Below, in pieces: positions 22,770-57,828 of a stretch of 64,000 nucleotides of DNA. This DNA is from Bacillus sp. PK3_68. Lineage in GTDB: Bacteria; Bacillota; Bacilli; Bacillales; Domibacillaceae. The position numbers and the translations under genes were made by a program. The stretch lies in the NCBI RefSeq assembly GCF_003600835.1, contig NZ_NQYC01000001.1:4177001-4241000 (forward strand), given 5' to 3'. The notes below the pieces were generated by a model. That model was not told the origin of the DNA. It did no database searches and was given only the letters and a program-made list of their open reading frames with translations. Position 1 is the first letter of the stretch, and each line of letters opens with the position of its first letter.

Positions 22770-24436
22770 GTGAGTAAGAAAAAAACGAAACGATTAAAGT
22801 GATTCCGCTTGGCGGAGTAGGTGAAATTGGAAAGAATATGACGGTAGTCGAAGTGGATGAAGAGATTTTTATAATTGACAGCGGGCTCATGTTCCCGGAA
22901 AATGAAATGCTCGGAATCGATATCGTCATCCCTGATATTTCTTATTTAATTGATAATAAAGAACGTATTAAAGGGATCTTTTTAACGCACGGACATGAAG
23001 ACGCCATCGGCTCGTTAGGCTATGTGCTGCAAAAAATTAAAGCGCCTGTGTATGGAACGAAGCTGACAATTGCCTTGGCAAAAATGCGTTTACGTGAGGA
23101 GAACGTAAAGGAAGAAGTAAAGTATTATACGGTGCATTCAGATACGCGGCTCCGTTTTGATAGTGTGGAAGTAACATTTTTCCGCACAACTCATAGCATT
23201 CCGGATTCTGTTGGTGTAGCCATTCACACTTCCGAAGGAGCCATCGTGCATACGGGGGAATTTAAGTTTGATCAGGCCGCAAAAGGTCTTTATTCACCTG
23301 ATATTGGAAAGATGGCTCAAATTGGCCAGAATGGGGTGTTTATGCTCTTATCTGATTCTACAGAGGCAGAGCGCCCGGGCCACACAACGTCTGAAGAAGT
23401 GATTGCTAGCCAGTTATCGGATGCTTTTCATATGGCAAAAGGACGTATTATTGTCGCTTCATATGCCTCCAATTTAATTCGTATCCAGCAAGTATTTGAC
23501 GCTGCTTACGAGAATGGCCGCAAAGTGGCCGTCAGCGGTAAAAGCTTGCAGCGTGTGAACGATGTGGCGATCAAGCTAGGCTATTTAAATGTTCAAGAAG
23601 ATGTATTGGTTAGCCTGCAGGAAATTGCTGAATATCCGGAAAATGAAATTGTAATTTTAACAACGGGCGTGCAGGGAGAACCAATTGAAGCACTGCAAAA
23701 AATGGCAAAAGGAACGAACAAGCTCGTAAGAATTAAAGAGGGGGATACAGTTTTAATTACGGCTACGCCTTCTCCGGGATTAGAGCTGCTTATGGCAAAG
23801 ACAGTGAATCTTCTTTATCGTTCCGGGGCAAATGTGGTAACAGGCAGCCGTAAAGTGCATGTTTCTGGTCACGGCTTCCAAGAAGATTTAAAGTTTATGC
23901 TCAATCTCATGAAACCACGTTATTTTATTCCTATTCAGGGTGAATACCGCATGTTGAAAGCCCATGCCAAGCTAGCTGCTCAAACAGGCGTACCCGTGGA
24001 GAACATTTATATCCCTGAAAAAGGGGATGTGATTGAATATAAAAACGATAAATTGCGCGTCAGCTCTAAAGTATCTGCAGGCAATGTCCTGATTGATGGA
24101 ATCGGCGTAGGAGATGTAGGCAACATCGTCTTGCGAGACCGTAAGCTTTTGTCACAGGATGGAATTTTCATTGTCGTCATTACGCTAAGCAAAAAACAAA
24201 AACGGATTGTCTCCGGTCCAGAGATCATATCGCGTGGTTTTGTGTACGTACGAGAGTCCGAGAAACTGATGGAGCAATCGACGAAATTAATCACTGATAT
24301 CGTAGAAAAAAATATGGCTGGCGAATCTTTTGATTGGTCAAGCATTAAGCAAGATATTAGAGATCAACTGAATTCATTCCTATTTGAAAAAACGAAACGT
24401 CGTCCAATGATCCTTCCCATCATCATGGAAGTCTAG
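22770..24436 (+). CDS. rnjB: Ribonuclease J2 (frame broken near the start)
   Basis: RNase J2 is a metallo-beta-lactamase/beta-CASP RNase that partners RNase J1 in mRNA decay and rRNA maturation. The protein shows VIPLGGVGEIGKN, the metal motif THGHEDAIG, VHTGEFKFDQ, HVSGHGFQEDL and the C-terminal LFEKTKRRPMILPIIMEV. The only good ribosome site, TAGGAGG, serves GTG 22770, but that frame stops at 22800. The conserved frame (start codon GTG 22799 at best) has no ribosome site of its own. Adding one A to the A7 run at 22779-22785 joins them and gives MSKKKNETIKVIPLGG, matching relatives. I read it as a one-base deletion, more likely a sequencing error than a real loss. Confidence 0.9.
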
Positions 24437-24590
24437 AAAAGCGGAAGGCGCTCGTTCAGCGGCGACAAGCATAAGACAAGCCAGCTGGAAGGTTGTTTTT
24501 TAATCTTCTGGCTGGATGGGCTTATGACCTCGAGCCGCTAGCGCCTGCAGCTGGACAATAGAAAAGCGGAAGGCGCTCGTTCAGCGGCGG
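24435..24590 (+). repeat. Dispersed palindromic repeat, copy 1, with truncated second unit
   Basis: The element begins inside the rnjB stop codon with AGAAAAGCGGAAGGCGCTCG and ends near 24558 with GCGCCTGCAGCTGGACAA. Its ends and middle are self-complementary (for example AAGCATAAG / CTTATG and CCAGCTGGAAG / CTTCTGGCTGG). A second unit starts exactly 125 bases later at 24560 with the same 30 bases and is cut off after 24589. The same element type recurs at 34120. Such AAAAGCGGAAG...GCGCC elements are common in Bacillaceae genomes. Confidence 0.8.
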
Positions 24591-24647
24591 AAAAGTCTTT
24601 GTTATTCCACCGATAAAAAGAAGATACTCTACGAATGATAAAATTAA

Positions 24648-24672
24648 AAATAAGCCTTCGGGCTTATTTTTT
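24648..24672 (+). terminator. Terminator upstream of tepA
   Basis: AATAAGCC and GGCTTATT close a TTCG tetraloop and are followed by a long T run. It terminates transcription coming from rnjB and the repeat. The remaining DNA to 24780 holds no gene. Confidence 0.9.
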
Positions 24673-24780
24673 TTGTTTATTGTTCTCTGATGCTTTTGAA
24701 TAATATCAGTCAGGATGAAGAGAATATTCATATACAAGTTAGGCGTTAGAATGCGTCGCCTTCGAAAGGAGAAATTGGAT

Positions 24781-25521
24781 ATGGATATAGAAAAGAAAAC
24801 AATGGAAGAAACAGAGCCGGAAGAACAGAATGAGAAACCCCAATCTTCTTTAATGGAGAAAATTCAACAGCTCGGACAGACAAATGTCCCCCAGCTTTCA
24901 AGTGATTCTCCTGTACATTGCCTCACTATTATTGGCCAAATTGAAGGGCACTTGCAGCTCCCTCCGCAAAATAAAACAACAAAATATGAGCACGTCATTC
25001 CGCAAATTGTGGCCATTGAACAGAACCCCTCAATCAAGGGGCTGCTCATTGTTTTAAATACTGTGGGAGGAGATGTTGAAGCAGGGCTCGCTATTTCTGA
25101 GATGCTTGCTTCATTGTCAAAGCCAACCGTTTCCATTGTTCTTGGAGGAGGGCATTCTATTGGTGTACCGATTGCTGTTTCCTGTGATTATTCCTTTATT
25201 GCTTCCACGGCTACTATGACCATTCATCCAATCCGGCTGACTGGTCTCGTGATTGGTGTTCCGCAAAGCTTTGAGTATTTGGATAAAATGCAGGAAAGAG
25301 TAGTCAATTTTGTTACAAAGCACTCAGCTATTTCAGAAGAAAAGTTTAAGGAACTAATGTTGGCAAAGGGGAACTTAACAAGGGATATAGGTACAAATGT
25401 AGTTGGCAAGGACGCTGTCCAGTACGGCTTAATTAAAGAAGTAGGCGGAATCGGGGAAGCGATGAGGAAGCTAAATGAATTGATTGCTGCTAAAGAACAA
25501 GGCGGAGCGATGATCCAATGA
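24781..25521 (+). CDS. tepA: ClpP-like serine protease TepA
   Basis: TepA (YmfB) is a ClpP-class peptidase reported to help protein translocation and needed for normal sporulation in B. subtilis. The 246-residue protein has an acidic N-terminus (about 1-35) and then the ClpP fold, with [15 protein letters not shown] and the nucleophile-region [29 protein letters not shown] contains the likely catalytic His. ATG 24781 follows AAAGGAG with eight bases spacing; the upstream frame extension is not conserved. The stop overlaps the ylzJ start by four bases. Confidence 0.92.
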
Positions 25522-25721
25522 TTTTATACACAGTCATGCCGTATGAGCACATTTACCCCGAAGATACTCAAGGGAATAATCTGGAATTTATTTCGTGGAA
25601 CGGTATTCCACTTTTTGCAGAGCGTGAGGAAAATCGCTATAAAGTTGTCCGGATTCTCAGTACCGATCCGTCCCACTATTTAAACCAGCAAGTAACACCC
25701 GGCCAATTCATTTCCCTTTAA
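25518..25721 (+). CDS. ylzJ: YlzJ-like small protein
   Basis: This 67-residue protein starts with [16 protein letters not shown] and contains [11 protein letters not shown] and [10 protein letters not shown], as in the YlzJ family found between tepA and spoIIIE in Bacillus. No function is known. The ATG overlaps the tepA stop (ATGA), so the two are translationally coupled. It has no membrane segment. Confidence 0.85.
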
Positions 25722-25728
25722 ACATCGT

Positions 25729-25757
25729 TAGATAGATACGAACAAATATGCTATAAT
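25729..25757 (+). promoter_or_regulatory. Possible promoter for spoIIIE overlapping the ylzJ terminator
   Basis: TAGATA (25729-25734) and TATAAT (25752-25757) are 17 bases apart. The expected start point would fall inside the following terminator hairpin, so the two signals overlap. Confidence 0.4.
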
Positions 25758-25760
25758 ATA

Positions 25761-25796
25761 GAAAGCAGCCCCATCGGCTGCTTTCTTGCTTTTTGT
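25761..25796 (+). terminator. Terminator after ylzJ
   Basis: GAAAGCAGCC and GGCTGCTTTC form a perfect ten-base stem around CCATC, followed by TTGCTTTTTG. Confidence 0.8.
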
Positions 25797-25822
25797 TTTA
25801 ATCCAATGATTAGGTGGGAGCT

Positions 25823-28183
25823 ATGGCAAATAAAAAGAAGAAAAAATCGTCCAAGCGGACAAAAAAATCAATGCAAATCAAAGAAGCGATTAAGCTGGAG
25901 TTAATTGGAATTATCACCATTGCCTTGAGCCTCATCGGCATCATAAGACTCGGCGCAGTAGGCAATGCTTTCGTTTATTTTTTTCGATTTTTCCTCGGCG
26001 AATGGTATATGATTGGCTTCATCGCTGCGATCCTTTATGGAATTTACATAATGGCAAAACGTAAGAGGCCTCTTCTGTTTCGTAGGAAACAGGTGGGACT
26101 GTATGTTATTTTGATGAGCGTATTACTTTTAAGTCATGTAAAGCTGTTTGAGCTGCTTGGAAACGGTCGGTCGTTTAATGAGCCGAGCGTCTTAATTAAC
26201 ACATGGGATCTTTACTGGCTGGAGGTAAAAGAAGGAACGGCCAGCAGCCACGACCTGGGAGGCGGGATGATCGGTGCCACGCTATTTGCTGTTTCCTACT
26301 TTTTATTTGATACGCTTGGCACAAAAATTTTGAGTTTCGTTCTTATCATGATTGGTTTGATTTTAATTACCGGCCGGTCGTTTGGAGAAATTTTTAACAA
26401 GCTATTTGTAGCCGGTCAGAAAAACTTTAAAAAGCAGTGGGCTGTATTTCTCCAAGATATGAAAGAGTGGAAGGATGAGAGAAAGACAAGACGGGCCGAT
26501 CGGGTGGAAGAGGATGAAAAAATACCTGAAAGAGCATCTGAAAGAACAGTAGAGCCACATTCCCCATTGACTAATAATGAAGACAATTATTCGGCTCCGG
26601 AGCCGATTATTTCAAGTTTTACCGAGCGTGCTTATCAGGAGGAAGCGGAGCCCGTTCTAGAACGGGGAAAAGAAGAAAAGGCAAGGCCAGCCCAGGCCGC
26701 TGAAAAAGAAGAGGATGATCGAGCACCTTCTATGACTTTTACAGAGGTAGAAAACAAAGATTATCAGCTTCCTTCGATTAACCTGTTAACAAGGCCCCAG
26801 CAAACGGACCAAAGCAGAGAATACAAACAAATCCATGCAAATGCAGCGAAGTTAGAAAGAACATTCCAAAGCTTCGGTGTGAAAGCGAAAGTCACCCAGG
26901 TTCACCTAGGGCCTGCTGTGACTAAGTATGAAGTGCATCCTGATGTAGGGGTAAAAGTCAGCAAGATTGTTAGTTTAAGTGATGACCTCGCCCTGGCGTT
27001 AGCCGCAAAGGATATCCGGATGGAAGCGCCAATCCCCGGAAAATCGGCTATTGGAATCGAAGTGCCTAATTCGGAGGTAGCTATGGTCTCGCTTCGGGAA
27101 GTATTAGAAGCAAGTGCTAATGAAAAACCAGGATCCAAGCTAATGATTGCTTTTGGACGCGACATTACCGGAGAGGCAGTATCGGCTGAATTAAACAAAA
27201 TGCCCCATTTACTCGTAGCCGGAGCTACAGGAAGTGGGAAGAGTGTTTGTATAAATGGGATTATTACTAGCATCTTAATGCGGGCAAAACCGCATGAGGT
27301 CAAGCTCATGATGATTGATCCGAAAATGGTGGAATTAAATGTTTACAATGGCATTCCTCACCTGCTGGCGCCGGTTGTAACAGATGCAAAAAAAGCTTCC
27401 CAAGCACTGAAGAAAGTCGTAGGAGAAATGGAGCGTAGATATGATCTGTTCTCTCACAGCGGAACGAGAAACATTGAAGGGTATAACACCCATGTGAAAC
27501 GCCATAACGAAGAGACAGGAGAAAAGCAGCCGCTTCTTCCTTATATTGTTGTTATCGTTGATGAGCTGGCTGACTTGATGATGGTCGCCTCGGGCGATGT
27601 AGAAGATTCTATTACAAGGCTTGCCCAAATGGCACGAGCAGCAGGCATTCATTTAATCATTGCCACTCAGCGACCTTCTGTCGACGTCATTACCGGTGTA
27701 ATCAAAGCAAACATTCCGTCAAGAATTGCTTTTGCCGTATCTTCAATGACAGACTCGAGAACCATCCTGGATATGGGAGGAGCGGAAAAACTTTTAGGCC
27801 GTGGGGATATGCTTTTCTTTCCTTCAGGCGCCTCCAAGCCGATCCGCGTTCAGGGAGCGTTTTTATCTGATGAAGAAGTAGAAGAAGTCGTTGATTATGT
27901 GATTTCTCAACAAAAAGCGCAATATCAAGAAGACATGATCCCTGACGATACACCGGAAACGACGAGTGAGGTGGAGGATGAGCTATATGAAGAGGCAGTT
28001 CAGCTGGTAGCAGATATGCAAACTGCTTCTGTCTCTATGCTGCAAAGAAGATTTCGTATTGGCTACAGCCGTGCAGCACGGTTGATCGATGAGATGGAAA
28101 TGCGAGGAGTTGTTGGCCCATATGAAGGCAGCAAACCACGAACAGTTTTAATTTCTAAACAGGCAGAGGAGCATATGCAATAA
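25823..28183 (+). CDS. spoIIIE: DNA translocase SpoIIIE (FtsK family)
   Basis: SpoIIIE pumps the chromosome into the forespore and clears DNA from septa. The 786-residue protein has a lysine-rich N-terminus, four membrane segments (about 25-185), and an acidic/proline-containing linker. The RecA-like motor has Walker [10 protein letters not shown] near residue 467 and [10 protein letters not shown]-like [14 protein letters not shown]-terminal winged-helix gamma domain for DNA sequence recognition follows ([27 protein letters not shown]). ATG 25823 follows AGGTGGGAG; GTG 25814 is inside that site. Length matches B. subtilis SpoIIIE. Confidence 0.96.
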
Positions 28184-28187
28184 TGAC

Positions 28188-28220
28188 AAAGCCGCCGAGT
28201 TTCCTATCCGGCGGCTTTTA
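28188..28220 (+). terminator. Terminator after spoIIIE
   Basis: AAAGCCGCCG pairs with CGGCGGCTTT around a short loop; only about four T follow. The DNA from 28221 to 28443 is AT-rich and holds no gene; it should carry the promoter of the regulator gene. Confidence 0.7.
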
Positions 28221-28407
28221 TGATGAATGTCCTTTTCACGTCGAGCTAATAATTATAAAGTTAAATATAGGCTTAATCAAGGGGTTTTTCATAATTATGC
28301 GAGGGAATTGTATACATAAAAAACAAATAACATGAATCATTGATTTTATCTTTTCAATCTGGACAAAAAGTGCTATCTTAAACTTAAATTAGTAGAAATG
28401 TTATACA

Positions 28408-28419
28408 TCAGAGGTCTGA
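28408..28419 (+). promoter_or_regulatory. Palindromic operator candidate upstream of the GntR gene
   Basis: TCAGAGGTCTGA is a 12-base dyad (TCAGA/TCTGA arms) 24 bases before the start codon of the GntR-type regulator. GntR proteins bind short dyads, so autoregulation is plausible. No second copy is seen before nupN. Confidence 0.4.
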
Positions 28420-28443
28420 CGTTGTAAGAAAGTGGGTGGTTAC

Positions 28444-29169
28444 ATGACAATAAAGTCGGATAGCCGGCATTTATACCTTCAAGTAATTGATCGTTTGAAA
28501 AGAGATATTGAAGCAGGGGTTTATAAGGAGAGAGAAAAGCTTCCTTCCGAGTTCGAACTAGCCAAGCAGCTAGGGGTGAGTCGTGCTACCCTAAGAGAGG
28601 CCCTGCGTATTCTTGAAGAGGAAAATGTCATTATCCGCAGGCATGGAGTCGGAACATTTGTAAACGCAAAACCGCTGTTTACCTCAGGCATTGAGCAGCT
28701 GAAGAGTGTAACGGACATGATCATTCAAGCAAATATGGAGCCGGGAACGATCTTTTTAAATTCGGGTATACAAAACCCGACTGAAGAAGATATGCGGCGG
28801 TTTGACTGCGGACCGGACGAAGAAATATTTGTAATCGAACGGGTGCGCACAGCTAACGGGGAACCGGTTGTCTATTGTTTGGATAAGATTCCGGTTAACT
28901 ATTATCCGGAGAGTTATAACTATGGCGATGAATCACTTTTTTCACTGCTTGATCGGACAAGCAGTCGGAAGATCTCCCACGCGGTCGCCCAAATTGAACC
29001 GTTTGGCTATCATGAGAAAGTGTCACCCATTCTTCAATGCGATCCTGAAACTGCTCTGCTCATCTTAAAACAATTGCATTTTGATGAAACAGATCAGCCG
29101 ATTCTTTACTCCGTGAACTACTTCAAAGCGGATAAATTCAGTTTCCACGTCTTGAGAAAGCGGTTCTAG
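28444..29169 (+). CDS. nupR: GntR-family regulator of nucleoside uptake (NupR/YmfC type)
   Basis: The 241-residue protein has an N-terminal GntR winged helix (about 10-75) with [45 protein letters not shown] and [12 protein letters not shown]-terminal UTRA/HutC-type effector domain follows ([21 protein letters not shown]). It lies after spoIIIE exactly where B. subtilis has ymfC. Here the nucleoside ABC importer genes follow 49 bases downstream, which supports a repressor role for them. The start is ATG 28444 with a weak GTGGGTGG ribosome site. Confidence 0.85.
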
Positions 29170-29218
29170 CTTTTATGGAAACATTTCTACTAACTTTAAA
29201 TTTTAGGAGGTTATCTTG

Positions 29219-30307
29219 ATGACAAAACGCAAGTTTGGTCTTGCCATGTCCCTTGTTCTTGCAGCCGGTACGATCCTTGGTGCATGCGGTGGCGGCAATG
29301 ATGATGGAGAGAAAAGCCAAAAGGGCAACAACAAGAAAGATGATCAGTTTACAGTAGCTATGGTTACCGATGTAGGTGGAGTGGATGATAAATCCTTTAA
29401 CCAGTCTGCCTGGGAAGGATTACAGGAGTTTGGCAAGGATAACAACCTGGAAAAAGGAACAAGCGGCTATGACTATATCCAATCAAAGTCAGATGCTGAC
29501 TACAAAACGAACTTAAATACAGCAGTTCGTAATAAATTTGATCTGGTTTATGGAATTGGTTATAAACTTAAGCCAGCTATTGAAGAAGTAGCAAAACAGC
29601 GTAAAGACAGCCACTTTGCTATCGTTGACGATGTGATCGAAGGCCAAGATAACGTAGCAAGCATTACATTTAAAGAGCATGAAGGTTCTTTCCTTGTCGG
29701 TGTAGCAGCTGGATTGACTACTAAATCCAATAAAATTGGCTTCATCGGTGGAACTGACAGTGACTTAATTAACAAATTTGCAGCTGGCTTCCAGGCTGGT
29801 GTGAAAGCGGTTAATCCTAAAGCAACTGTGAAAATTGAGTATGCTGGCGCGTTTGATAAAGCAGACAAAGGACAGCAAATGGCTTCTGCTATGTATGGAT
29901 CAGGCATCGATATTATTTACCATGCAGCTGGTGCGACAGGTAATGGAGTATTTACAGAAGCGAAAAACGAAAAGCAGAAAAACCCTGATAAAGATGTTTG
30001 GGTAATCGGTGTTGACCGTGACCAAGCTGAAGAAGGAAAAGTGACAGTCAATGGAAAAGAAGAAAATATCACATTAACTTCTATGGTTAAGCGTGTAGAT
30101 ATCGCTGTAAAAGACCTAGCTACAAAAGCAAAAGAAGGAAAGTTCCCAGGTGGGGAATTGCTGGAATACGGTCTTGAAGACAACGCTGTAAGCATTGCTC
30201 CAACTCAAGATAATTTAAGTGAGGACGTAAAGAAAGCCGTTCAAGAATGGACAGAAAAAGTTAAAAACGGTGAAGTGAAGGTTCCTTTAAAGCCTGAAGG
30301 AAAATAA
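29219..30307 (+). CDS. nupN: Nucleoside-binding lipoprotein (BMP family) of ABC importer
   Basis: This is the substrate-binding lipoprotein of a nucleoside importer of the PnrA/BMP family. The signal peptide has the lipobox LGAC with the lipidated Cys23. The mature part starts with a Gly/Asp/Lys-rich linker and then the BMP domain: [47 protein letters not shown] and GVDRDQ. Length is 362 residues. ATG 29219 is eight bases after TAGGAGG; TTG 29216 is an alternative. It is followed by strong hairpins before nupO, typical where the binding protein is made in excess. Confidence 0.93.
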
Positions 30308-30336
30308 TCTAGCCACTCTGCAATAACGTAGTACTC

Positions 30337-30373
30337 CCGGGGTAAATCAGAGAATTAAGAAGATTTGCCCCGG
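30337..30373 (+). other. 12-bp hairpin after nupN
   Basis: CCGGGGTAAATC (30337-30348) pairs with GATTTGCCCCGG (30362-30373), one G-T pair included. No T run follows, so it looks like an mRNA-stabilising or processing hairpin rather than a terminator. Confidence 0.65.
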
Positions 30374-30416
30374 CTTAAAAATGGTAACAAGAATGCAGCA
30401 CGTCTGTATGTTTGTT

Positions 30417-30490
30417 AGGATTTTTAAGCTGGCGCTTTTGCTTGTCTGCAAAATGCCGGGAAGCTCTGTGTTCTGCAAAAATCCTAGTGA
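30417..30490 (+). ncRNA. Structured leader or intergenic RNA before nupO, function unknown
   Basis: TAGGATTTTT pairs perfectly with AAAAATCCTA about 50 bases later, enclosing further possible pairs such as GCTGGC/GCCGG. It does not resemble the purine riboswitch core. It could be an attenuator or processing element of the nup operon; the call is structural only. Confidence 0.35.
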
Positions 30491-30584
30491 TAGAAGGTCA
30501 GACATCCTACTTGCAATCATTAATTCGTTTATCTACACGATAGCCTGTGCGGCAAGAAAAGACCTTAGATGAGGAGTGAGTCAG

Positions 30585-39264: not shown

Positions 39265-40135
39265 GTGACAGAATTAGGAAACCGCTTAAGAGAAGCACGG
39301 GAGGCGAAAGGGCTATCCTTAGCAGATGTGCAGGAAATGACAAAGATTCAGAAAAGATATTTAAAGGGCATAGAAGAGGGGAATTATGAGCTGATGCCCG
39401 GCAAATTTTATGTACGGGCGTTTATCAAGCAATATGCTGAAGCGGTTGGGCTTGACCATGAGCAATTGTTTGAAGAATATAAAAATGAAATTCCTTCTTC
39501 CTATGAAGATGAAATTCCTCAAAGAGCGACAAAAGTAGAGAAAGTACGGACGACGGCGCCAGCTGAACCGTCCAAGCTTCTTGAGTATTTACCGAGGATT
39601 TTAGTGACGGCTTTTGTTGTCGGAGCACTTTTTCTAGTTTGGTTTCTTATCCCTAAGAGTGATTCTAATGACAAAGCGGTGAAGGAAGAAACCGTTGTTG
39701 AACAGCCGAAAGACCAGACGGATGATAAGAAAGAAGCCAAAGAGCCAAAAAAGAAACGAACAAAGAGCCTAAAAAGAAGAGAAAGTCGAAGAGCCTGCTA
39801 AGCCTGCACAAACCTTAACTGCAGCAGGGGCGAGCGGCAGGAAAGCCACATACGTTCTTCAAAATGCAGAGAAATTCGAGGTAACTATTCTATCTAAAGG
39901 GGAGACATGGATAGGAGTAACTGATGGAAGCGGAAAAAGCTATTATAATAATATGTTGGCAAAAGGACAGTCGCAAACATTTAATTTAACAGGACAGACA
40001 GAAGCGAAAATTGTCGTTGGCTTTGCACCGGATACGGAAATTAAAGTAAACGGCGAAACGCTGGCGTATCAGCTTCCGGCTGCCAAACAGGTAAGACAAG
40101 ACATTATTATTCAGGCGAAACCTGCCGGACAATAA
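39265..40135 (+). pseudogene. rodZ: rodZ (YmfM), frame broken in the linker
   Basis: RodZ is a membrane protein of the elongation/cell-shape machinery that links to MreB. The first frame encodes the cytoplasmic HTH (residues 1-70, with RLREAREAKGLSLADVQEMTKIQKRYL) and the membrane helix (about 108-130). A Lys/Glu-rich linker follows and the frame ends at 39801. The extracytoplasmic DUF4115 domain continues in another frame from about 39775 to 40135 (TYVLQNAEKFEVTILSKGETWIGV). Two one-base deletions in the A-rich stretch 39747-39779, or one insertion after 39772, explain the break. The start GTG 39265 follows GGAAGGTG. Confidence 0.88.
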
Positions 40136-40200: not shown

Positions 40201-40778
40201 GTGAATTTACCGAATAAAATTACTGTTTCAAGGATTTTAATGATCCCGCTCTTTTTGGTGATCATGTTAGTTGAGTTTAATTGGGGGACCTTACAGTATT
40301 TGGTACCACCATGCCGGCTGCCCACTTTTGGGGAGCCATGCTATTTATTTTAGCCTCAACGACTGACTGGGTTGATGGCTATTATGCGAGAAAATTAAAC
40401 CAGGTCACAAACTTGGGGAAATTTTTAGATCCACTCGCTGATAAGTTACTTGTATCAGCAGCCTTAATCGTGCTTGTTGATTTTAATTTAGCTGCTTCCT
40501 GGATTGTCATTCTTATTATCAGCAGGGAGTTTGCGGTAACGGGCTTACGGTTAATCTTAGCTGGAGAAGGCGAAGTGGTTGCGGCTAATATGCTTGGGAA
40601 AATTAAGACGTGGGCGCAGATTATTGCCATTGCGGCTTTATTGCTTCATAATGCGCCATTTGAAGGATTAGGAATCCCATTTGCAGATATCGCCCTTTGG
40701 ATAGCGGCATTCTTTACCGTTTGGTCCGGCTGGGATTACTTCTATCTTAACCGTGGCGTGTTTAAACATTCAAAGTAA
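40201..40778 (+). pseudogene. pgsA: Phosphatidylglycerophosphate synthase, frame broken at a G run
   Basis: PgsA makes the precursor of phosphatidylglycerol and is normally essential. The N-terminal frame from GTG 40201 (ribosome site GGAGGG) gives NLPNKITVSRILMIPLFLVI and FNWG, then leaves the family. From the G5 run at 40283-40287 the +1-shifted frame carries the rest: DLTVFGTTMPAAHFWGAMLFILASTTDWVDG, split here by the break. The intact CDP-alcohol motif has TTDWVDGYYAR and GKFLDPLADKLL. One extra G restores a 192-residue protein of normal length. Given essentiality this is most likely a base-calling error. Confidence 0.9.
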
Positions 40779-40873: not shown

Positions 40874-40875
40874 TA

Positions 40876-48137: not shown

Positions 48138-48398
48138 ATGGAGATATTAAAAGTTTCGGCAAAATCTAATCCTAATTCTGTAGCTGGTGCACTTGCCGGT
48201 GTTCTTCGGGAAAGAGGGGCGGCTGAAATTCAGGCAATTGGGGCTGGTGCGCTTAATCAAGCGGTCAAGGCAGTAGCGATTGCACGAGGATTTGTTGCTC
48301 CAAGCGGGGTAGATTTAATTTGCATCCCAGCTTTTACAGACATTATGATTGAAGGAGAAGAACGAACTGCAATCAAATTGATTGTCGAACCTCGATAA
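48138..48398 (+). CDS. spoVS: Stage V sporulation protein S
   Basis: SpoVS is an 86-residue Alba-like nucleic-acid-binding protein that affects septation and sporulation. The sequence MEILKVSAKSNPNSVAGALA, AEIQAIGAGALNQAVKAVAIARGFVAPSG and LICIPAFTDIMIEGEERTAIKLIVEP is nearly invariant in spore formers. ATG 48138 follows AAAGGAGG; the upstream extension to 48099 is spurious. A long hairpin follows the gene. Confidence 0.96.
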   Translation: MEILKVSAKSNPNSVAGALAGVLRERGAAEIQAIGAGALNQAVKAVAIARGFVAPSGVDLICIPAFTDIMIEGEERTAIKLIVEPR

Positions 48399-48413
48399 CA
48401 TCATAAATATGGA

Positions 48414-48496
48414 TAAAAACCGGCCTTTTGATAGTACAGGAGAAGAAGGATTAGTCTTCTGCTCTGCTTTCTTAAGGCGGGTTTTTCTTTTTTTAC
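48414..48496 (+). terminator. Long interrupted hairpin terminator after spoVS
   Basis: The outer arms AACCGGCCTT and AAGGCGGGTT enclose an inner pair GAGAAGAAG / CTTCTGCTC. A T-rich tail follows. Architecture is like the hairpins after rbfA and dapA. Confidence 0.7.
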
Positions 48497-48550
48497 GCTT
48501 TGTTGTTTCGCCTTTATGAATCAGAAACATTTCTGAAAGGGATGAGAAAA

Positions 48551-49468
48551 ATGGTGTTTGATGCACACTGTGACGTCTTATATCAATTACAAAAAGATCC
48601 AAAGAAAAATTTTAATGATCCTTCCTTGCATGTGACACACAGCAGACTTAAACGAGCGAAAGCCAAGGTTCAATGCTTTGCGATCTTTCTTCCAACTTCA
48701 GTGAGGCCAAACGATCGGTTCCGCTCGGCATTAGAGCAAATTGATTTATTTTACAAGAAGGTGATTGATCCCTATCCAGATATGAAAGTGATTACAACTA
48801 GGCGGGAATTGGAAGAGCTGAAAAACGGAGAAATTGGCGCCGTACTTACGCTCGAAGGCGGTGAGGCAATTGAAGAAGACCCATTAAAGCTATCGACCCT
48901 ATACCGGCTCGGTGTAAGGTCCGTCGGTTTAACGTGGAATCACACTAATGCTTTGGCAGACGGTGCTATGACTAAAAGGGGAGCGGGTATAACTGAATTT
49001 GGAAGTCGCGTTGTCCGTATGCTGAATGAATGGAAGGCTTGGACAGATGTATCTCATTTGTCGGAGAAGGCCTTTTGGGATGTAATGGAACAGGCTGATC
49101 ATCCAATTGCTAGTCATTCAAATTGCTACAGCCTTTGTCCGCATCCGCGCAATTTGAAAGATGATCAAATTCAAGCATTAATTGAAAAGGATAGCGTGGT
49201 CGGCCTCTCCTTTGTACCGTTTTTTATTAAGGAACATGGAAAGGTATATGCTCAAGACTTGCTGAAGCACGTAGAGCATATTTGTGAACTGGGGGGTGAA
49301 AACCATCTTGGTTTCGGCTCGGATTTTGATGGCATTGACGAAATGATTCAAGGTTGGGATTCATATGAGGCCTACGAGCAATGGACAGAGATTCTTCAAA
49401 AGTACTATTCCGCCAGCCAAGTAGAAAAGTTTCTTTGGACGAATTTTTCAAGTCGATTTCCGGGATGA
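48551..49468 (+). CDS. Membrane-dipeptidase family (M19) peptidase
   Basis: The 305-residue protein belongs to the renal dipeptidase (M19) family of zinc dipeptidases. The metal-binding DAHCD motif (residues 4-8) is followed by AVLTLEGGEAIEEDPLKLSTLYRLGVRSVGLTWN, split here as one family block. DVSHLSEKAFWDVM, PIASHSNCYSLCPHPRNL and HLGFGSDFDGID supply the remaining ligands. No signal peptide is visible, so it is cytoplasmic. ATG 48551 follows AAAGGG; ATG 48542 overlaps that site. It replaces the tdh-kbl genes found here in B. subtilis. Confidence 0.9.
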   Translation: MVFDAHCDVLYQLQKDPKKNFNDPSLHVTHSRLKRAKAKVQCFAIFLPTSVRPNDRFRSALEQIDLFYKKVIDPYPDMKVITTRRELEELKNGEIGAVLTLEGGEAIEEDPLKLSTLYRLGVRSVGLTWNHTNALADGAMTKRGAGITEFGSRVVRMLNEWKAWTDVSHLSEKAFWDVMEQADHPIASHSNCYSLCPHPRNLKDDQIQALIEKDSVVGLSFVPFFIKEHGKVYAQDLLKHVEHICELGGENHLGFGSDFDGIDEMIQGWDSYEAYEQWTEILQKYYSASQVEKFLWTNFSSRFPG

Positions 49469-49565
49469 GGGTCGCGTTTAGCTATAGTGATTCAACTGTA
49501 AAAGTGATAAACTAAAAAAGTAATAGTTTTGAAGATCCGAATGTACTGAAGGAGTTGTATATTTT

Positions 49566-51335
49566 ATGATAAATCAGCTTTCCTGGAAAGTCGGAGGACA
49601 ACAGGGGGAAGGGATTGAAAGTACCGGGGAAATCTTTTCTACCGCTTTGAACCGTCTCGGATACTTTCTCTACGGGTACCGCCATTTTTCATCCCGAATT
49701 AAAGGCGGCCATACCAATAATAAAATTCGTGTGAGCACGACTCCTGTCCGTGCGGTCGCGGATGATTTAGATATTTTAGTGGCATTTGACCAGGAAACCA
49801 TTGATGTCAACTATGGGGAGCTTCACGATCAGGGAATCATCATCGCAGATGCTAAGTTCAATCCAGTGAAGCCAGATCAGGCAAAGGCAGAATTGTATGT
49901 CGTTCCTTTCACAGAAATCGCGGCTGAACTGGGTACGTCGTTGATGAAGAACATGGTAGCTGTAGGGGCCACATGCGCTGTTATTAATTTAGATGTACAC
50001 GTGTTTACCAATGTAGTAGAAGAAATTTTTGGCCGCAAGGGAGAAGCCGTTGTCCAGAAGAACATGGAAGCGATTCAACAAGGCTATCAATATATGTGTG
50101 ACCAGCTTGGCAGCAAAGTAGGAGCCATGCAGCTTGAAGCGGCAGATGGACATCAGCGGATGTTCATGATCGGCAATGATGCGATCGCACTCGGTGCCCT
50201 GGCGGGCGGTGTCCGTTTGATGGCGGCTTACCCGATTACGCCAGCTTCTGAAATTATGGAATACTTGATCGACAAGCTGCCGAAGGTCGGCGGAACGGTC
50301 ATTCAAACAGAAGATGAAATTGCGGCAGCCACGATGGCGATCGGTGCCAATTATGGCGGCATTCGTTCCTTTACCGCTTCTGCGGGACCGGGTCTCTCTT
50401 TAATGATGGAAGCGATTGGCCTGGCGGGGATGACAGAAACGCCGCTCGTTGTCGTTGATACTCAGCGGGGGGGTCCATCTACCGGCTTGCCAACAAAGCA
50501 AGAACAGTCCGACTTACTGGCGATGATTTACGGAACCCATGGCGAAATCCCGAAAATCGTGATGGCGCCAAGCACGGCAGAAGAAGCCTTTTATGATACG
50601 GTGGAAGCCTTTAATCTCGCAGAAGAATATCAATGTCCGGTGATTCTTCTATCTGACTTGCAGCTATCTCTTGGCAAACAAACCGTCGAACCGCTGGACT
50701 ACAGCCGAGTAGAAATCCGCCGAGGCAAACTTGTTCAAGAAGAGCTGCCGGAGCTGGATGGAAAAGCTTACTTTAAACGCTATGAAGTGACAGAGGATGG
50801 AGTTTCCCCTCGAGTGATCCCTGGCATGAAGCATGGCATTCACCACGTAACAGGGGTGGAGCATGATGAGACCGGAAGGCCGTCCGAAGGAGCGGCTAAT
50901 CGCCAGGCTCAAATGGACAAGCGGATGAGAAAGCTGGAGCAGATCCGCTTTGATACACCGGTCTATAAAAACGCTCAGCATGAAGAAGCTGATTTATTGT
51001 TGATCGGATTTAATTCCACTCGCGGGGCGATTGAAGAAGCGATGGAACGGTTAGAGCAGGAGGGGGTAAAAGTCAACCATGCTCAAATTAGACTCATTCA
51101 TCCGTTCCCGTCAGAAGAAATCTTGCCGCTGATCGAGTCAGCGAAAAACGTGCTTGTCGTAGAAAATAATGCGACTGGCCAATTGGCGAATATCATTAAA
51201 ATGAATGTAGGCCACATTCAGAAAGTGAAAAGCCTGCTAAAATATGACGGCAATCCATTCCAGCCGCATCATATTTACCATGGCAGCAAAGAACTTTTCC
51301 CATTACAAGGAGCGGTTACAAATGGCAACGTTTAA
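49566..51335 (+). CDS. korA: 2-Oxoacid:ferredoxin oxidoreductase, alpha subunit (KorA type)
   Basis: This subunit works with the next gene to oxidise a 2-oxoacid, probably 2-oxoglutarate, to the acyl-CoA with ferredoxin as acceptor. The 589-residue protein is a gamma-alpha fusion. The N-terminal gamma domain (about 1-180) has GGQQGEGIESTGEIFSTAL and SRIKGGHTNNKIRVS. The alpha part has MAAYPITPASEIMEYL, QTEDEIAAATMAIGANYGG and FTASAGPGLSLMMEAIGLAGM. AAGGAGTTG precedes the ATG. It overlaps korB by 14 bases. Confidence 0.92.
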   Translation: MINQLSWKVGGQQGEGIESTGEIFSTALNRLGYFLYGYRHFSSRIKGGHTNNKIRVSTTPVRAVADDLDILVAFDQETIDVNYGELHDQGIIIADAKFNPVKPDQAKAELYVVPFTEIAAELGTSLMKNMVAVGATCAVINLDVHVFTNVVEEIFGRKGEAVVQKNMEAIQQGYQYMCDQLGSKVGAMQLEAADGHQRMFMIGNDAIALGALAGGVRLMAAYPITPASEIMEYLIDKLPKVGGTVIQTEDEIAAATMAIGANYGGIRSFTASAGPGLSLMMEAIGLAGMTETPLVVVDTQRGGPSTGLPTKQEQSDLLAMIYGTHGEIPKIVMAPSTAEEAFYDTVEAFNLAEEYQCPVILLSDLQLSLGKQTVEPLDYSRVEIRRGKLVQEELPELDGKAYFKRYEVTEDGVSPRVIPGMKHGIHHVTGVEHDETGRPSEGAANRQAQMDKRMRKLEQIRFDTPVYKNAQHEEADLLLIGFNSTRGAIEEAMERLEQEGVKVNHAQIRLIHPFPSEEILPLIESAKNVLVVENNATGQLANIIKMNVGHIQKVKSLLKYDGNPFQPHHIYHGSKELFPLQGAVTNGNV

Positions 51336-52188
51336 AGATTTTCGAAATGATGTAAAACCAAACTGGTGTCCAGGCTGCGGTGACTTTTCTGTCCAGGCGG
51401 CGATTCAGCGGGCGGCGGCCAATATCGGCTTGACGCCGGATCAGCTTGCGGTTATTTCCGGCATCGGCTGTTCGGGACGTATTTCAGGCTACATTAAATC
51501 ATACGGCCTTCATGGGATTCATGGGCGATCACTGCCGATTGCTCAAGGAGTGAAGATGGCCAACAAAGACTTAACGGTGATTGCTTCTGGCGGAGACGGC
51601 GATGGATTCGCCATCGGCATGGGGCATACGATTCATGCGATGCGCCGCAATATTGATATGACTTATATTGTGATGGATAATCAAATTTACGGGTTAACAA
51701 AGGGGCAAACCTCTCCTCGCTCTGCTCAGGGATTTGTAACAAAGTCCACTCCGAAAGGAGCGATTGAAGGAACGGTCTCTCCCATGGAGCTGGCGCTGAC
51801 AAGTGGCGCTACATTTGTCGCTCAAAGCTTCTCTACGGACCTGAAGGACTTAACGGCCATCATTGAAGCGGGCATCAACCATAAGGGCTTTTCTATTATT
51901 AACGTGTTCAGCCCATGTGTGACCTATAATAAAATTAACACCTATGATTGGTTTAAAGAAAACTTAACGAAGCTTTCTGCGATTGAAGACTATGATTCTT
52001 CCAATCGGGAGATGGCGATGAATACGCTGATGCAACACAACGGCCTCGTAACAGGGATCATTTATCAGGATAAAGAAAGAGCTTCTTATCAAGAGCTTGT
52101 GCATGGCTATGCAGAAGAACCGCTGGCCAGCCAAGACCTGCAGCTAGGCGATGAAATGTTTAATAACCTTGTGAAGGAATTTATATGA
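51322..52188 (+). CDS. korB: 2-Oxoacid:ferredoxin oxidoreductase, beta subunit (KorB type)
   Basis: The 288-residue beta subunit binds thiamine diphosphate and an iron-sulfur cluster. Cys16 and Cys19 lie in NWCPGCGDFSVQAA, followed by ISGIGCSGRISGYIKSYGLHGIHGR and the TPP motif GGDGDGFAIGMGH with MDNQIYGLTKGQTSPRS. ATG 51322 has AAGGAGCGG upstream and lies inside the korA end, so the two are coupled; the longer frame back to 51244 is within korA. A clear terminator follows. Confidence 0.93.
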   Translation: MATFKDFRNDVKPNWCPGCGDFSVQAAIQRAAANIGLTPDQLAVISGIGCSGRISGYIKSYGLHGIHGRSLPIAQGVKMANKDLTVIASGGDGDGFAIGMGHTIHAMRRNIDMTYIVMDNQIYGLTKGQTSPRSAQGFVTKSTPKGAIEGTVSPMELALTSGATFVAQSFSTDLKDLTAIIEAGINHKGFSIINVFSPCVTYNKINTYDWFKENLTKLSAIEDYDSSNREMAMNTLMQHNGLVTGIIYQDKERASYQELVHGYAEEPLASQDLQLGDEMFNNLVKEFI

Positions 52189-52189
52189 T

Positions 52190-52218
52190 AAAAAAACCGC
52201 CATTGGCGGTTTTTTTAT
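52190..52218 (+). terminator. Terminator after korB
   Basis: AAAACCGCC and GGCGGTTTT enclose ATT and are followed by further T. The rest of 52219-52404 is AT-rich without a gene and should hold the miaB promoter. Confidence 0.9.
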
Positions 52219-52404
52219 TTCAAAATAGGATTAATAAGAAAAAATAATGCTTTATTCTATCTAGTGAAATTGTTAGTATTCATCTATTGTTTAATCAAAT
52301 GGAAAGCTATATACTAAAATAATGTGTACCACTTAACAAAAGATATTTCTCACTTTAAATATGGTTTATTGTCGTTTTTGCTAGAAAAGAAAGGAGTTTT
52401 TCTG

Positions 52405-53949
52405 ATGAATGAAGAGCAACGTCTTCAGGGACAGCAAGTAAAAGAGAAAAATCCAACGGACAAAAAATCCGAAAAGGATTACAGTAAATATTTTGAAACC
52501 GTCTTTTTACCGCCTTCTTTAAAGGAAGCAAAAAAGCGGGGGAAAGAAGAAGTAGCCTACCATAAAGATTTTAAGATCGACGAACAGCTTCGCGGCATGG
52601 GAGACGGGAAGAAGTTTTATATACGCACGTATGGCTGCCAGATGAACGAACATGACACAGAAGTAATGGCGGGCATCTTCATGGCTCTTGGCTATGAAGC
52701 AACGGATACAGTAGAGGATGCGAACGTTATCTTGCTCAACACGTGTGCGATTCGTGAAAATGCAGAAAATAAAGTGTTTGGTGAGCTTGGTCACTTGAAG
52801 CATTTAAAACAGCAGCGACCTGATCTATTGTTAGGTGTGTGCGGGTGTATGTCACAAGAAGAGTCTGTCGTAAATAAAATTTTAAAAACCTATAATCATG
52901 TTGATATGATTTTTGGCACACATAACATTCACCGCCTTCCACATATTTTAAATGATGCCTACATGTCGAAGGAAATGGTTGTTGAGGTATGGTCAAAAGA
53001 AGGGGACGTAGTAGAAAACCTTCCAAAAGTACGTCGGGGAAATATTAAAGCATGGGTAAATATTATGTACGGCTGTGATAAATTCTGTACGTATTGTATC
53101 GTTCCTTATACACGCGGAAAGGAACGGAGCCGACGCCCAGAGGACATTATTCAAGAGGTGCGTCATTTAGCTGCTCAAGGCTATCAGGAAATTACACTTC
53201 TTGGCCAAAATGTTAATGCCTATGGAAAAGATTTCGAAGACATAGAATACGGTCTCGGTGATTTAATGGACGAAATGAGAAAAATCGATATTCCGCGCGT
53301 TCGCTTCACAACGAGTCATCCGCGTGACTTCGACGATCATCTGATTGAAGTGTTAGCGAAAAAGGGCAATTTAATGGATCATATTCATTTGCCAGTTCAG
53401 TCAGGATCTACAGATGTATTAAAAATTATGGCACGCAAATATACGCGCGAACAATTCCTTGAGCTTGTTCGCAAAATCAAAGCAGCCATCCCGGATGTTG
53501 CGTTAACAACTGATATCATCGTCGGCTATCCGAATGAAACAGAGGAGCAATTTGAAGAAACCATTTCTCTGTACCGTGAGGTGGGCTTTGAGTCCGCTTA
53601 TACGTTTATTTATTCTCCACGTGAAGGCACGCCTGCTGCTAAGATGAAAGACAACGTTCCGATGGAAGTGAAGAAAGAGCGGCTGCAGCGCCTAAATGCG
53701 GTAGTAAACGAATTGTCAGCTGAAGCATTAAAGAAATATGAAGGACAAGTTGTTCCTGTGCTCGTTGAAGGGGAAAGCAAGAACAATCCGGACATTTTGG
53801 CCGGATACACGAACAAAAATAAATTAGTTAATTTCAAGGGGCCGAAAACGGCAATCGGCAAAATTGTAAATGTAAAAATAACTGATGCAAAAACTTGGTC
53901 CTTAAACGGAGAAATGATTGAAGAACATCAATTGGCTGAGGTGGAGTAA
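52405..53949 (+). CDS. miaB: tRNA-2-methylthio-N6-isopentenyladenosine synthase MiaB
   Basis: MiaB adds the methylthio group at A37 of tRNAs. The 514-residue radical SAM protein has an N-terminal MTTase domain (Cys78 in [12 protein letters not shown], with further cysteines in LNTCAIREN and [10 protein letters not shown]). The radical SAM cluster is Cys224, Cys228, Cys231 (CxxxCxxC), and a C-terminal TRAM domain follows. A lysine-rich N-terminal extension of about 70 residues is normal in Bacillus. ATG 52405 follows AAAGGAG. It is directly upstream of ricA. Confidence 0.96.
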
Positions 53950-53950
53950 A

Positions 53951-54382
53951 ATGGCAAAGTATACAAAAGATGATATTCTCGCACAAGCAACAGAGCTGGC
54001 TAAAATGATTGCAGAAACCGACGAGGTTGCATTCTTTAAAGAGGCAGAAGCAAAAATTCATGAAAACCAAAAAGTGCGTGAAAAAATTGCCAGTTTAAAA
54101 AGCTTGCAGAAACAAGCGGTGAATTTTCAGCATTACGGCAAGACAGAAGCGTTAAAAATGGTCGAAGAAAAAATGTTGAAAATTGAACAGGAATTAGATG
54201 AGATTCCTGTTGTCCAGCAGTTTAAAGAATCACAGGTAGAAGTAAATGATATTTTGCAAATCGTTACATCCGCTATCTCCAACACAGTAACAGACCAGAT
54301 TATTGAATCAACTGGCGGCGATTTGCTTCGCGGTGAAACAGGAGCCCAAGTTAGAAACAGCACGCCAGGAAGCTGCAGCTAA
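53951..54382 (+). CDS. ricA: RicA (YmcA), RicAFT complex subunit
   Basis: RicA belongs to the YlbF/YmcA family and acts with RicF and RicT to support RNase Y processing and competence, biofilm and sporulation. The 143-residue, mostly helical protein has KYTKDDILAQATELAKMIAETDEV, KIASLKSLQKQAVNFQHYGK and a C-terminal tail with one cysteine (TPGSCS); the family complex carries iron-sulfur clusters. ATG 53951 lies one base after the miaB stop and has GAGGTGGAG inside miaB. A terminator follows. Confidence 0.92.
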   Translation: MAKYTKDDILAQATELAKMIAETDEVAFFKEAEAKIHENQKVREKIASLKSLQKQAVNFQHYGKTEALKMVEEKMLKIEQELDEIPVVQQFKESQVEVNDILQIVTSAISNTVTDQIIESTGGDLLRGETGAQVRNSTPGSCS

Positions 54383-54395
54383 TAAGTAGGCAAAC

Positions 54396-54431
54396 GAAAG
54401 ACATCAGCTCTCTATGCTGGTGTCTTTTTTA
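54396..54431 (+). terminator. Terminator after ricA
   Basis: AAGACATCAGC pairs with GCTGGTGTCTT and is followed by T6. Confidence 0.9.
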
Positions 54432-54519
54432 TGACTAGAGAATATGAAAATCCACTTTCTCGGCAGTAGGGTTTTAGAGGAGTTATCTTTGCTTTTCTAA
54501 CTTTTTATATGTTCTAGGC

Positions 54520-54547
54520 ACATGTCTCGCTCTTGGTGCATATGATA
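54520..54547 (+). promoter_or_regulatory. Candidate sigma-K promoter of cotE
   Basis: AC (54520-54521) is followed after 17 bases by CATATGATA (54539-54547), an exact fit to CATAnnnTA. In B. subtilis cotE has sigma-E and sigma-K promoters; a matching sigma-E -35 was not found here. Confidence 0.5.
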
Positions 54548-54577
54548 GATAGAGAACAAGCGAGGAGGGACGCTCGG

Positions 54578-55117
54578 ATGGCAGAATATAGAGAGATTAT
54601 TACAAAGTCGGTTGTTGCTAAAGGCCGAAAATTTACTCAGACGCATCACACCATTTGTCCGCCACATCACCCATCGAGCATTTTAGGTTGCTGGATTATT
54701 AACCATGAGTATAAAGCAAAAAAGATGGGGAAAAAGGTAGAGGTTCATGGAACATACGATATTAACGTATGGTATTCGCATCATGACAATACGAAAACTT
54801 CAGTCGTAACGGAAAAAGTAAGTTATAAAGATGTTATTAAGTTGAAATATCGCGATGAAAATTGTTTTGATGATAATGAAGTGATGGCTCGGGTGCTGCA
54901 ACAGCCAAATTGCTGTGAAGCGGTATGTTCGCCAAAGGATAATAAAATCATTGTTCAGGCTGAGCGCGAATTCTTGGTTGAAGTGGTCGGGGAAACAAAA
55001 ATTTGCGTAGCGGTCCACCCTTATGGATGTGAGGATGAAGATTGGGACAGCGACATTGATGACGAAGACTATGAAGAATTAGATACAGCTTTTATAGAGA
55101 ATAAAAAAGAAGATTAA
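54578..55117 (+). CDS. cotE: Outer spore coat protein CotE
   Basis: CotE is the morphogenetic protein that assembles the outer spore coat. The 179-residue protein starts [21 protein letters not shown] and has [21 protein letters not shown] and [51 protein letters not shown] and a strongly acidic C-terminus (about 155-179) follow. GAGGAGGG lies seven bases before ATG 54578; the upstream frame to 54533 is not conserved. It stands between ricA and mutS as in B. subtilis. Confidence 0.95.
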
Positions 55118-55120
55118 CGT

Positions 55121-55157
55121 AATGAGCAGGCTCTGAATACAGCCTGCTCATTTTTGT
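55121..55157 (+). terminator. Terminator after cotE
   Basis: AATGAGCAGGCT and AGCCTGCTCATT form a perfect stem, followed by TTTGT. Confidence 0.85.
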
Positions 55158-55243
55158 GGGCTGCGTACGGCAGAGGGAGGGGAAATATGATATAATGTAA
55201 AGTTGAAAATAGACAGGTTTTCTTGAAAGGGATTGGACAATAT

Positions 55244-57828
55244 ATGGAACAATATACGCCGATGATCCGGCAATATTTAGCGATAAAGGCACAATATGAG
55301 GATGCCTTTTTGTTTTTTCGTTTAGGAGATTTCTATGAAATGTTTTTTGAAGATGCAACGAAAGCCAGCCAGTTGCTTGAAATTACGTTAACGAGCAGAG
55401 ATGGCGGATCGTCTGCACGTATACCGATGTGCGGGGTGCCCTACCATTCGGCGGCTGCTTATATAGAACAGTTAATCGAACTTGGCCATAAGGTCGCTAT
55501 TTGCGAACAGACTGAAGATCCAAAGCAAGCAAAAGGTGTCGTTAAACGCGAAGTCGTACAGCTTATCACCCCTGGCACTGTCATGGAAGGCAAGGGGCTT
55601 CACGATAAAGAAAACAATTATATCGCGGCTCTCTTCTGTGAAAATGAGGATACATACAGCCTGGCCTTTTGTGATTTATCTACTGGTGAAAGTCGAACGA
55701 CAGCTTTAACGACACTCGATGAAGTACTGAATGAACTATCTACTTTACGGGCAAAGGAGGTAGTGACGAAGCAGGATTTGGATGAGAATGTAAGAAAGGC
55801 GTTAAAGGAGCGGCTTGGTGTTACGCTTTCTTATGAAGAGCAAACAGCTGCAAGGGATGAATTCGTGTCTTTAACCGAACAGATTACTGTTTCCGGAATG
55901 CAGCAGGCCGCCCATCTGCTGTTTCATTATCTGCACCGCACGCAAAAGCGGAGTCTCACTCACTTACAGCCAGTTGAAGTCTATGAAGTCCATCAATTTA
56001 TGAAGATCGATTTTTATTCCAAACGCAATCTTGAGCTAACGGAAACGATTCGTTCGAAAAACAAAAAGGCTCATTGCTTTGGCTTTTGGATGAAACGATG
56101 ACGGCGATGGGCGGCCGGATGCTGAAGCGTTGGATTGACCGTCCGCTGATCAACCGACGACAAATTAATGAACGTTTGTCAATGGTGGAGAAATTGATAC
56201 AATCGTTTTTTGAGCGCCAGGAAATCCGGGAGATGTTAAAGGAAGTGTATGATCTGGAGCGCCTTGCTGGACGGGTCGCTTTCGGAAATGTCAACAGCCG
56301 CGATTTGATTCAGTTAAAGAAATCCTTGCAGCAGATTCCACTGCTGAAGGATTTGCTGCTTAAAATTCAAAACGATGAAATTCAAGCACTCTCGAAAAAT
56401 ATGAATCCGTGTGAAGAGTTGACCGACCTTCTCGAACAAGCTTTTGTTGATAATCCGCCGTTATCTGTTAAAGAAGGCGGCATGATCAGAGACGGCTTTC
56501 ATGCGGAGCTTGATGAGTATAGAGATGCAAGCCGCAACGGAAAAGATTGGATTGCCAACTTGCAGCAGGAAGAGAGAGAAAGAACAGGCATCAAGTCATT
56601 AAAGATTGGCTATAATCGTATCTTTGGCTATTACATTGAAATTACAAAAGCGAACCTTCATTTGCTTCAGGACAGCCGCTATGAACGCAAACAAACATTA
56701 GCAAACTGTGAGCGTTTTATCACGCCGGAATTAAAGGAAAAGGAAACGCTGATTTTGCAAGCTACAGAAAAGATTATTGACCTGGAGTATGAGCTGTTTC
56801 TTGAAATCCGTGAGCAGGTGAAATCATTTATTCCTGAGCTTCAGGAACTTTCTAGACTTGTGAGCGAATTAGACGTGCTGCAATGCTTCGCTGAAGTCAG
56901 TGAGAAGCGAAAATATATAAGACCGGAATTAACGGAAAGCCGAGAGCTTTTCATTAAAGAGGGGCGCCATCCTGTCGTGGAAAAAGTCATGGATTCCCAG
57001 GAATACGTTCCGAATGACTGTTTCATGAACGGCGAGAGGGAAATGCTTCTTGTCACCGGTCCGAATATGTCAGGGAAAAGCACGTATATGAGACAGATCG
57101 CTTTAACAGCCATTATGGCTCAAATTGGCTGTTTCGTTCCTGCACAGGAAGCTAAGTTGCCTGTTTTCGATCAGGTGTTTACAAGAATCGGGGCAGCGGA
57201 TGATTTGATCTCGGGCCAAAGTACGTTTATGGTGGAAATGCTGGAGGCTAAAAATGCTATTACCCATGCAACGAACCAATCTTTGATTCTCTTTGATGAA
57301 ATTGGCCGCGGCACATCAACCTATGATGGAATGGCGCTTGCTCAAGCGATCATTGAGCATATTCATGAGCATATTCAAGCCAAGACGCTGTTTTCTACCC
57401 ATTATCATGAATTAACTGTTTTAGAGGAATCCCTTCCTCAGTTGAAAAATGTACATGTCAGTGCAATTGAACAAAATGGCCGTGTGGTTTTTCTTCACAA
57501 AATAAAAGAAGGAGCGGCCGATAAAAGCTACGGCATTCATGTGGCGCAGCTGGCTGAGCTTCCTCGTGAGCTCATTGAGCGAGCAAATGAGATCCTGACG
57601 GAATTAGAACAGAAAGAACAGCCTGATTTACGAAAGCAGCCGAAGGAAACAGCAGAAGCAGCCGGCCAGCTCTCTTTCTTCAGCGAACCTGTTGCTCCTC
57701 CTCCTACGCCGCAGACAGATAAAGAGAAAAAGATTATTGAAGAGTTAAAGTCCTACGATTTACTGGAAATGACTCCTCTTGATGCAATGAATGCCCTCTA
57801 TGCGCTTCAAAAGAAAATAAAGAGGTAG
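55244..57828 (+). pseudogene. mutS: mutS, DNA mismatch repair ATPase, frame broken once
   Basis: MutS recognises mismatches. The first frame (ATG 55244, ribosome site GAAAGGG) carries the mismatch-binding Phe30-Tyr31-Glu32 motif in LGDFYEMF and the connector domain, then ends at 56101. The second frame, from about 56070, carries [20 protein letters not shown], the clamp, and the ATPase with [34 protein letters not shown] and [11 protein letters not shown]. One missing base near A5/GG at 56063-56069 (codon 274) accounts for the break; restoring it gives about 861 residues, a normal length. Both halves remain well conserved, so the break is recent or an error. Confidence 0.93.

Follow-up and report, generated by a model that had tools for sequence, protein, structure and literature searches.

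Breaks at short mononucleotide runs in the Bacillus sp. PK3_68 assembly: very probably under-called bases in rnjB, pgsA, mutS and other genes

Genes broken at mononucleotide runs are known from error-prone assemblies, from mutator strains and from endosymbionts, and the papers on them are cited here for the excerpts that deal with such breaks. Gene-fragmenting errors of long reads were deletions closely associated with runs of two to eight bases, mostly after four or five, and annotated pseudogenes fell from 23.3% to 5.6% after their correction in the example of that study (PMC12007338). Nanopore assemblies still contain insertions and deletions (indels) at runs, often frameshifting, with newer chemistry performing better (PMC9262707). 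In hypermutators of Bacillus subtilis the indel rate rises with run length (PMC11890065), and in Blochmannia and Buchnera, endosymbionts of ants and aphids, slippage is described as rescuing genes at poly-A/T tracts (PMC3017870). Here we analysed the assembly of Bacillus sp. PK3_68 (4,832,247 bases in two contigs), starting from a window of 64,000 nucleotides (G000:C1:4177001-4241000, G000 being the assembly under study) in which the conserved genes rnjB, rodZ, pgsA and mutS each change reading frame. Under-called short runs very probably explain the breaks, which would make them an artefact of the assembly and not biology. They resemble the long-read assembly errors in the excerpts cited above, with deletions after runs, a peak at four to five bases and many frameshifted apparent pseudogenes (PMC12007338, PMC9262707). 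They differ from the cited long-read example in composition, since A/T runs predominate there, whereas here G/C runs are hit more often than their number would suggest.

Reading frames, sequence and family models concurred in placing all four breaks where a sequence-only reading of the window had located them (Table 1). The pieces were identified with TIGR00560 (pgsA), TIGR01070 (mutS) and RodZ family models, congener alignments used the genomes G001, G002 and G003, and intact frames were looked for in 40 relatives (MutS, PgsA, RodZ and pheT). In mutS the two pieces join at about 56060-56069. The flanks had been called conserved on both sides of the breaks, and this was borne out, for instance by the MutS pieces, with 227/275 (N-terminal) and 497/595 (C-terminal) residues identical to G001. 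The pgsA pieces join at the G run 40283-40287, and the tblastn match of the N-terminal piece runs slightly beyond it. In rnjB, a GTG at 22770, preceded by a GGAGG that resembles a ribosome-binding site, opens a frame that stops after ten codons, directly behind the A run 22779-22785; the main frame, of 545 amino acids, occupies 22799-24436. The C-terminal piece of rodZ is identical to G001 at 102/120 residues, to G002 at 100/120 and to G003 at 110/120. Comparison with related genomes, which had been proposed as a check on these breaks, found three of the genes whole in 40/40 relatives. The MutS open frame measured 301 amino acids in the assembly versus 853-953 in the relatives, the RodZ open frame 184 versus 290-329 in one frame, and in all 40 relatives the PgsA family stood in one frame from model position one or two. 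The rnjB run was one base shorter in the assembly than in the alignments of 3/3 congeners.

Table 1. Broken genes of the window and their pieces (window coordinates).
Feature	Coordinates	Strand	Basis
rnjB-like (RNase J) gene	22770..24436	+	Frames, sequence, family model, congener alignments
rodZ N-terminal piece, 181 amino acids	39256..39801	+	RodZ family models; ends in Lys/Glu-rich linker
rodZ C-terminal piece, other frame	39773..40135	+	tblastn identity to congeners
pgsA N-terminal piece	40201..40302	+	27/34 residues identical to G001; TIGR00560 positions 1-25
pgsA C-terminal piece, other frame	40281..40778	+	TIGR00560 positions 28-178
mutS N-terminal piece, 292 amino acids	55223..56101	+	TIGR01070 positions 1-271
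mutS C-terminal piece, other frame, open frame 597 amino acids	56062..57828	+	TIGR01070 positions 274-840 (over 56074-57828)

The fault extends beyond the window. A 304-kb block comprising the window and its surroundings was screened against 280 kb of G001, while G002 and G003 were compared over 60-kb stretches only. The DNA of the block is 79-83% identical to the three congeners, and on this identity the assembly was taken as a species distinct from them. Every G001 frame of at least 90 amino acids was searched against the block with tblastn, and collinear pieces in differing frames were sought. This flagged 18 of 199 block genes, and 16 (8%) were kept. Besides the four window genes, these were, as named by their family models, spoIIGA, priA (803 amino acids), cheB, sbcC, signal peptidase I, an S4-type protein, an RqcH/EfbA-type protein, an enoyl-CoA hydratase, an mmdA-type protein, a 3-oxoacid CoA-transferase subunit, a BCCT transporter and a 92-amino-acid protein without a model match. 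The alignments of priA, cheB, mutS, sbcC and the S4 protein hold further gaps, which are mutually compensating or at the ends. rnjB had been flagged through its leader frame in this screen and was kept since its coding start also shifts frame. The two flags that were dropped are a frame at G001 block position 194311, which is antisense, and pyrB (22597), a leader artefact whose model starts at residue 45, downstream of the disagreement. No further window gene was flagged by tblastn against G001 or G002; against G003 two more were flagged in their start regions, near 48.0-48.5 kb, and these look like leaders.

The direction of the gaps was determined at the DNA level by counting isolated, well-flanked, frame-breaking gaps over about 204 kb of gene sequence. 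We found that all 16 clean gaps against G001 consisted of one base absent from the assembly, with no gains (two-sided P=3e-5 against a null of an even split of losses and gains). rodZ, with its unclean linker alignment, and rnjB, with a second gap nearby in its leader, are outside these 16. Fourteen of the gaps lie in coding sequence and two in the leaders of nusA and pgeF, at codons 13 and 11, ahead of the modelled parts, which start at residues 22 and 27 respectively, so the losses extend beyond coding sequence. The nusA leader (window 5774-5869, before the frame at 5869-6987) is one base short of G001 at a G run and is probably a non-coding instance of the same fault. Comparison with G002 gave three losses, including a two-base gap close to a start, and no gains. 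Under a strict interior filter, which required the gap to lie at least 45 codons inside the frame, the 199 genes yielded ten losses and one apparent gain in the assembly. That gain was set aside as it is located where homology begins, and a Fisher test on per-gene losses, run before the cases were inspected, yielded P=0.005.

The one-sided direction bears on the explanation that the organism is a true hypermutator, in which mutS was really lost and uncorrected polymerase slippage then broke other genes at runs. Slippage at runs is a product of missing mismatch repair, and a mutS mutator should yield gains as well as losses. As in the mismatch-repair-deficient hypermutators of the cited excerpt (PMC11890065), mutS is among the broken genes and the indels are located at runs. 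The N-terminal MutS family occurs once in the assembly. mutS is broken in the sequence as written, but this break is one of the suspect sites. Unlike in hypermutators, the changes here are one-sided, with not one gain in the 16 gaps against G001.

The link to runs was strong and confined to short ones. Fifteen of the 16 gaps fell within two bases of a run of at least four, whereas positions drawn at random from these genes would do so in 14.1% of cases (P=2.5e-12), and 12 were at runs of at least five (expected 5.6%). Nine of the 16 were at G/C runs of at least four, for which 1.8% was expected (P=2.1e-12). The aligner has some freedom in placing a gap, and the test was repeated with the tolerance widened to four bases; all 16 gaps were then near a run of at least four, versus 20.9% expected. 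As now written, the runs at these gaps are four to six bases long, with seven at rnjB. The block also contains A/T runs of seven to nine, at which the slippage of a mutator would be expected to gather, and among the breaks found only rnjB falls at runs of this length. That short runs were hit though longer A/T runs exist, and that G/C runs of four to five were affected far above their share, argues against a hypermutator. The one-sided loss of bases at runs four to seven long matches the published long-read error profile in the excerpt cited above and thereby supports under-calling (PMC12007338).

Run length also bears on the possibility that the losses are genuine and that slippage of transcription or recoding by the ribosome at the runs still yields full-length proteins, in the manner of the endosymbionts of ants and aphids. 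Both parts of each broken gene are still conserved here, and the Blochmannia and Buchnera cases likewise concern genes that are conserved apart from a single indel in a run (PMC3017870). In the cited excerpt, however, the genomes are AT-rich and the coding tracts counted are at least nine bases long, and rescue at G runs of four or five is not described there (PMC3017870). The longest run at the 16 gaps is six (seven at rnjB), far shorter than those tracts and often of G/C, so the long A/T tracts of those genomes have no equivalent at these sites. The breaks of mutS, pgsA and rodZ are shared by none of the 40 relatives, and 16 of 199 genes would require rescue simultaneously. In the broadest form of this reading, the species would make functional proteins from dozens to hundreds of genes, mutS and tRNA-charging genes among them, by -1 recoding or slippage that is common at very short runs. 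We consider both this and rescue of the endosymbiont kind exceedingly improbable.

The identity of the broken genes and the kinds of change they carry point in the same direction as the runs. The broken set spans replication, lipid, tRNA-charging and transport functions. A further case, pheT, lies 2.8 Mb from the window in contig coordinates and is divided into frames of 333 and 495 amino acids. Its comparison contained ten gaps, of which one is inside the gene, where the assembly is one base short at a G run, and nine are outside it, in both directions. pheT stands in one frame in 39/40 relatives, the remaining one being truncated at a contig end. Judging from model bacteria, the cell presumably depends on pgsA, priA and pheT for survival, and their loss in the way a hypermutator would demand would not be tolerated. 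In-frame stops occurred in 10 of the 199 top matches; eight were among the first 14 residues or the last five, one belonged to an antisense frame, and one was downstream of the BCCT transporter break already counted. No unexplained in-frame stop was therefore present in the body of a sense gene among the 199 top matches against G001, and the nonsense changes that would accompany a hypermutator are missing from them. Taken with the gaps and the runs, this makes a hypermutator very improbable. Recent true pseudogenes from ordinary decay or culture adaptation were considered as well. The conserved flanks are compatible with recent events, but such decay should add nonsense changes and gains, neither of which was found in gene bodies against G001, and genes of replication restart, phospholipid synthesis and tRNA charging are among those broken. 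We give this explanation the smallest chance of all. Gene bodies with bases lost but none gained, runs of four to seven, varied gene functions and intact relatives together form the signature of under-called runs.

Under-called runs in the assembly also accord with the reverse comparisons. With G001 as the target, 9 of 205 genes were flagged by tblastn, and none was convincing as a split of G001. In seven of them (a pknB-type kinase, rimM, topA, trmFO, rimP, asd and korB) the model begins after the disagreement, which marks these as over-extended frames; the other two are the mirror of the sbcC break and a minus-strand frame that no model matched. G001 as the target gave 18 gaps at the DNA level, seven losses and 11 gains. 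From their context, as these were not each inspected, we read most of them as leaders and some as mirrors of the breaks in the assembly. The strict filter left three cases in G001, two that start where homology starts and one sbcC mirror, and none survived. With the other congeners as targets against the assembly, the same filter found 0/51 genes in G002 and 0/50 in G003, and tblastn flagged two start-region cases in G003 and none in G002. Four DNA-level gaps were counted in each, as one loss and three gains in G002 and two of either kind in G003. Comparisons of congener with congener yielded zero or one case under the strict filter, the one being a single two-base gap, and 0, 1, 2 and 1 tblastn flags over four comparisons.

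Several observations weigh against under-called runs as the explanation. For rodZ, the frame step (1 to 2) is opposite in direction to that of the other three breaks, so a net loss would hold only if two bases were missing, and the linker alignment is too poor to tell whether bases were lost. The claim that all four window breaks can be read as base losses thus stood for rnjB, pgsA and mutS, and for rodZ a loss was not demonstrated. The rnjB break is limited to the first ten residues, where the coding loss is small. More generally, 5 of the 16 split genes break within their first 34 residues, and the coding loss in signal peptidase I is borderline, with the gap at codon 17 and the model beginning at residue 15. 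Against G003, two losses were accompanied by one gain in the assembly, directly before a start, and the leader of the gene at 48500 is one base longer in the assembly than in 3/3 congeners. Long runs are fewer in the assembly than in G001, yet not fewer than in both G002 and G003, so the run-length spectrum lends no support. Finally, pheT was an unplanned pick, searched for another reason, and rpoB, alaS, valS and leuS, which had been selected beforehand, are whole; one broken gene among five long essential ones fits the estimated rate, but the sample is small and proves nothing.

A technical cause of the breaks is most likely, judging from the sequence comparisons above, and it covers the set of breaks, each single site being individually unproven. 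The sequencing and polishing pipeline would sometimes report one base too few at runs of about five to eight, and such a missing base would shift the reading frame of the gene. rnjB, pgsA and mutS would be three such sites, and rodZ may hold two of them near each other within the A-rich linker. In the living organism, rnjB, rodZ, pgsA and mutS are most likely intact. The two contigs for 4.83 Mb and the published error profile suggest that the platform may have been insufficiently polished long-read sequencing. The sequence-only reading, which had recognised in the four window breaks the usual signature of run under-calling, is thereby strengthened, with 16/16 losses against G001, 15/16 of them at runs, 16/199 genes and pheT split, relatives whole and nonsense changes missing. 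Its warning about pseudogene counts from this assembly proved justified on the same split genes in 304 kb and on pheT. Assuming that the block is representative, about 8% of the genes in the assembly would be wrongly split, or roughly 300 genome-wide by extrapolation from 16 in about 204 kb. Counts of pseudogenes or of absent genes taken from this assembly, or its description as a "mutS-defective mutator", would then be false. Since the collection searched holds one genome per species and this assembly represents its species, the errors could spread to comparative studies.

Minor observations concern the start region near 48.5 kb, the synthetases, contamination, the relatives and the second contig. 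In the window, the start region of the gene at 48500-49468 is out of frame against G003 over 48380-48520, where the start codon is uncertain, and the discrepancy is probably a leader difference. At G000:C1:4398530-4401247 lies a second synthetase frame of 1039 amino acids, of valS/ileS-type relation, with no counterpart listed for the three congeners. A contamination estimate of 3.32% was weighed as a possible trace of split markers and then set aside, as the three congeners show 1 to 5%. By one protein, Bacillus aerolatus, B. badius and B. wudalianchiensis are the nearest named kin; at NCBI, badius now belongs to Pseudobacillus and aerolatus to Bacillus. The second contig (G000:C2) has 351,837 bases and may be a plasmid. 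A 20-kb piece of it (C2:100001-120000) showed short patches similar to plasmids of other Bacillaceae, covering at most 8% of the query.

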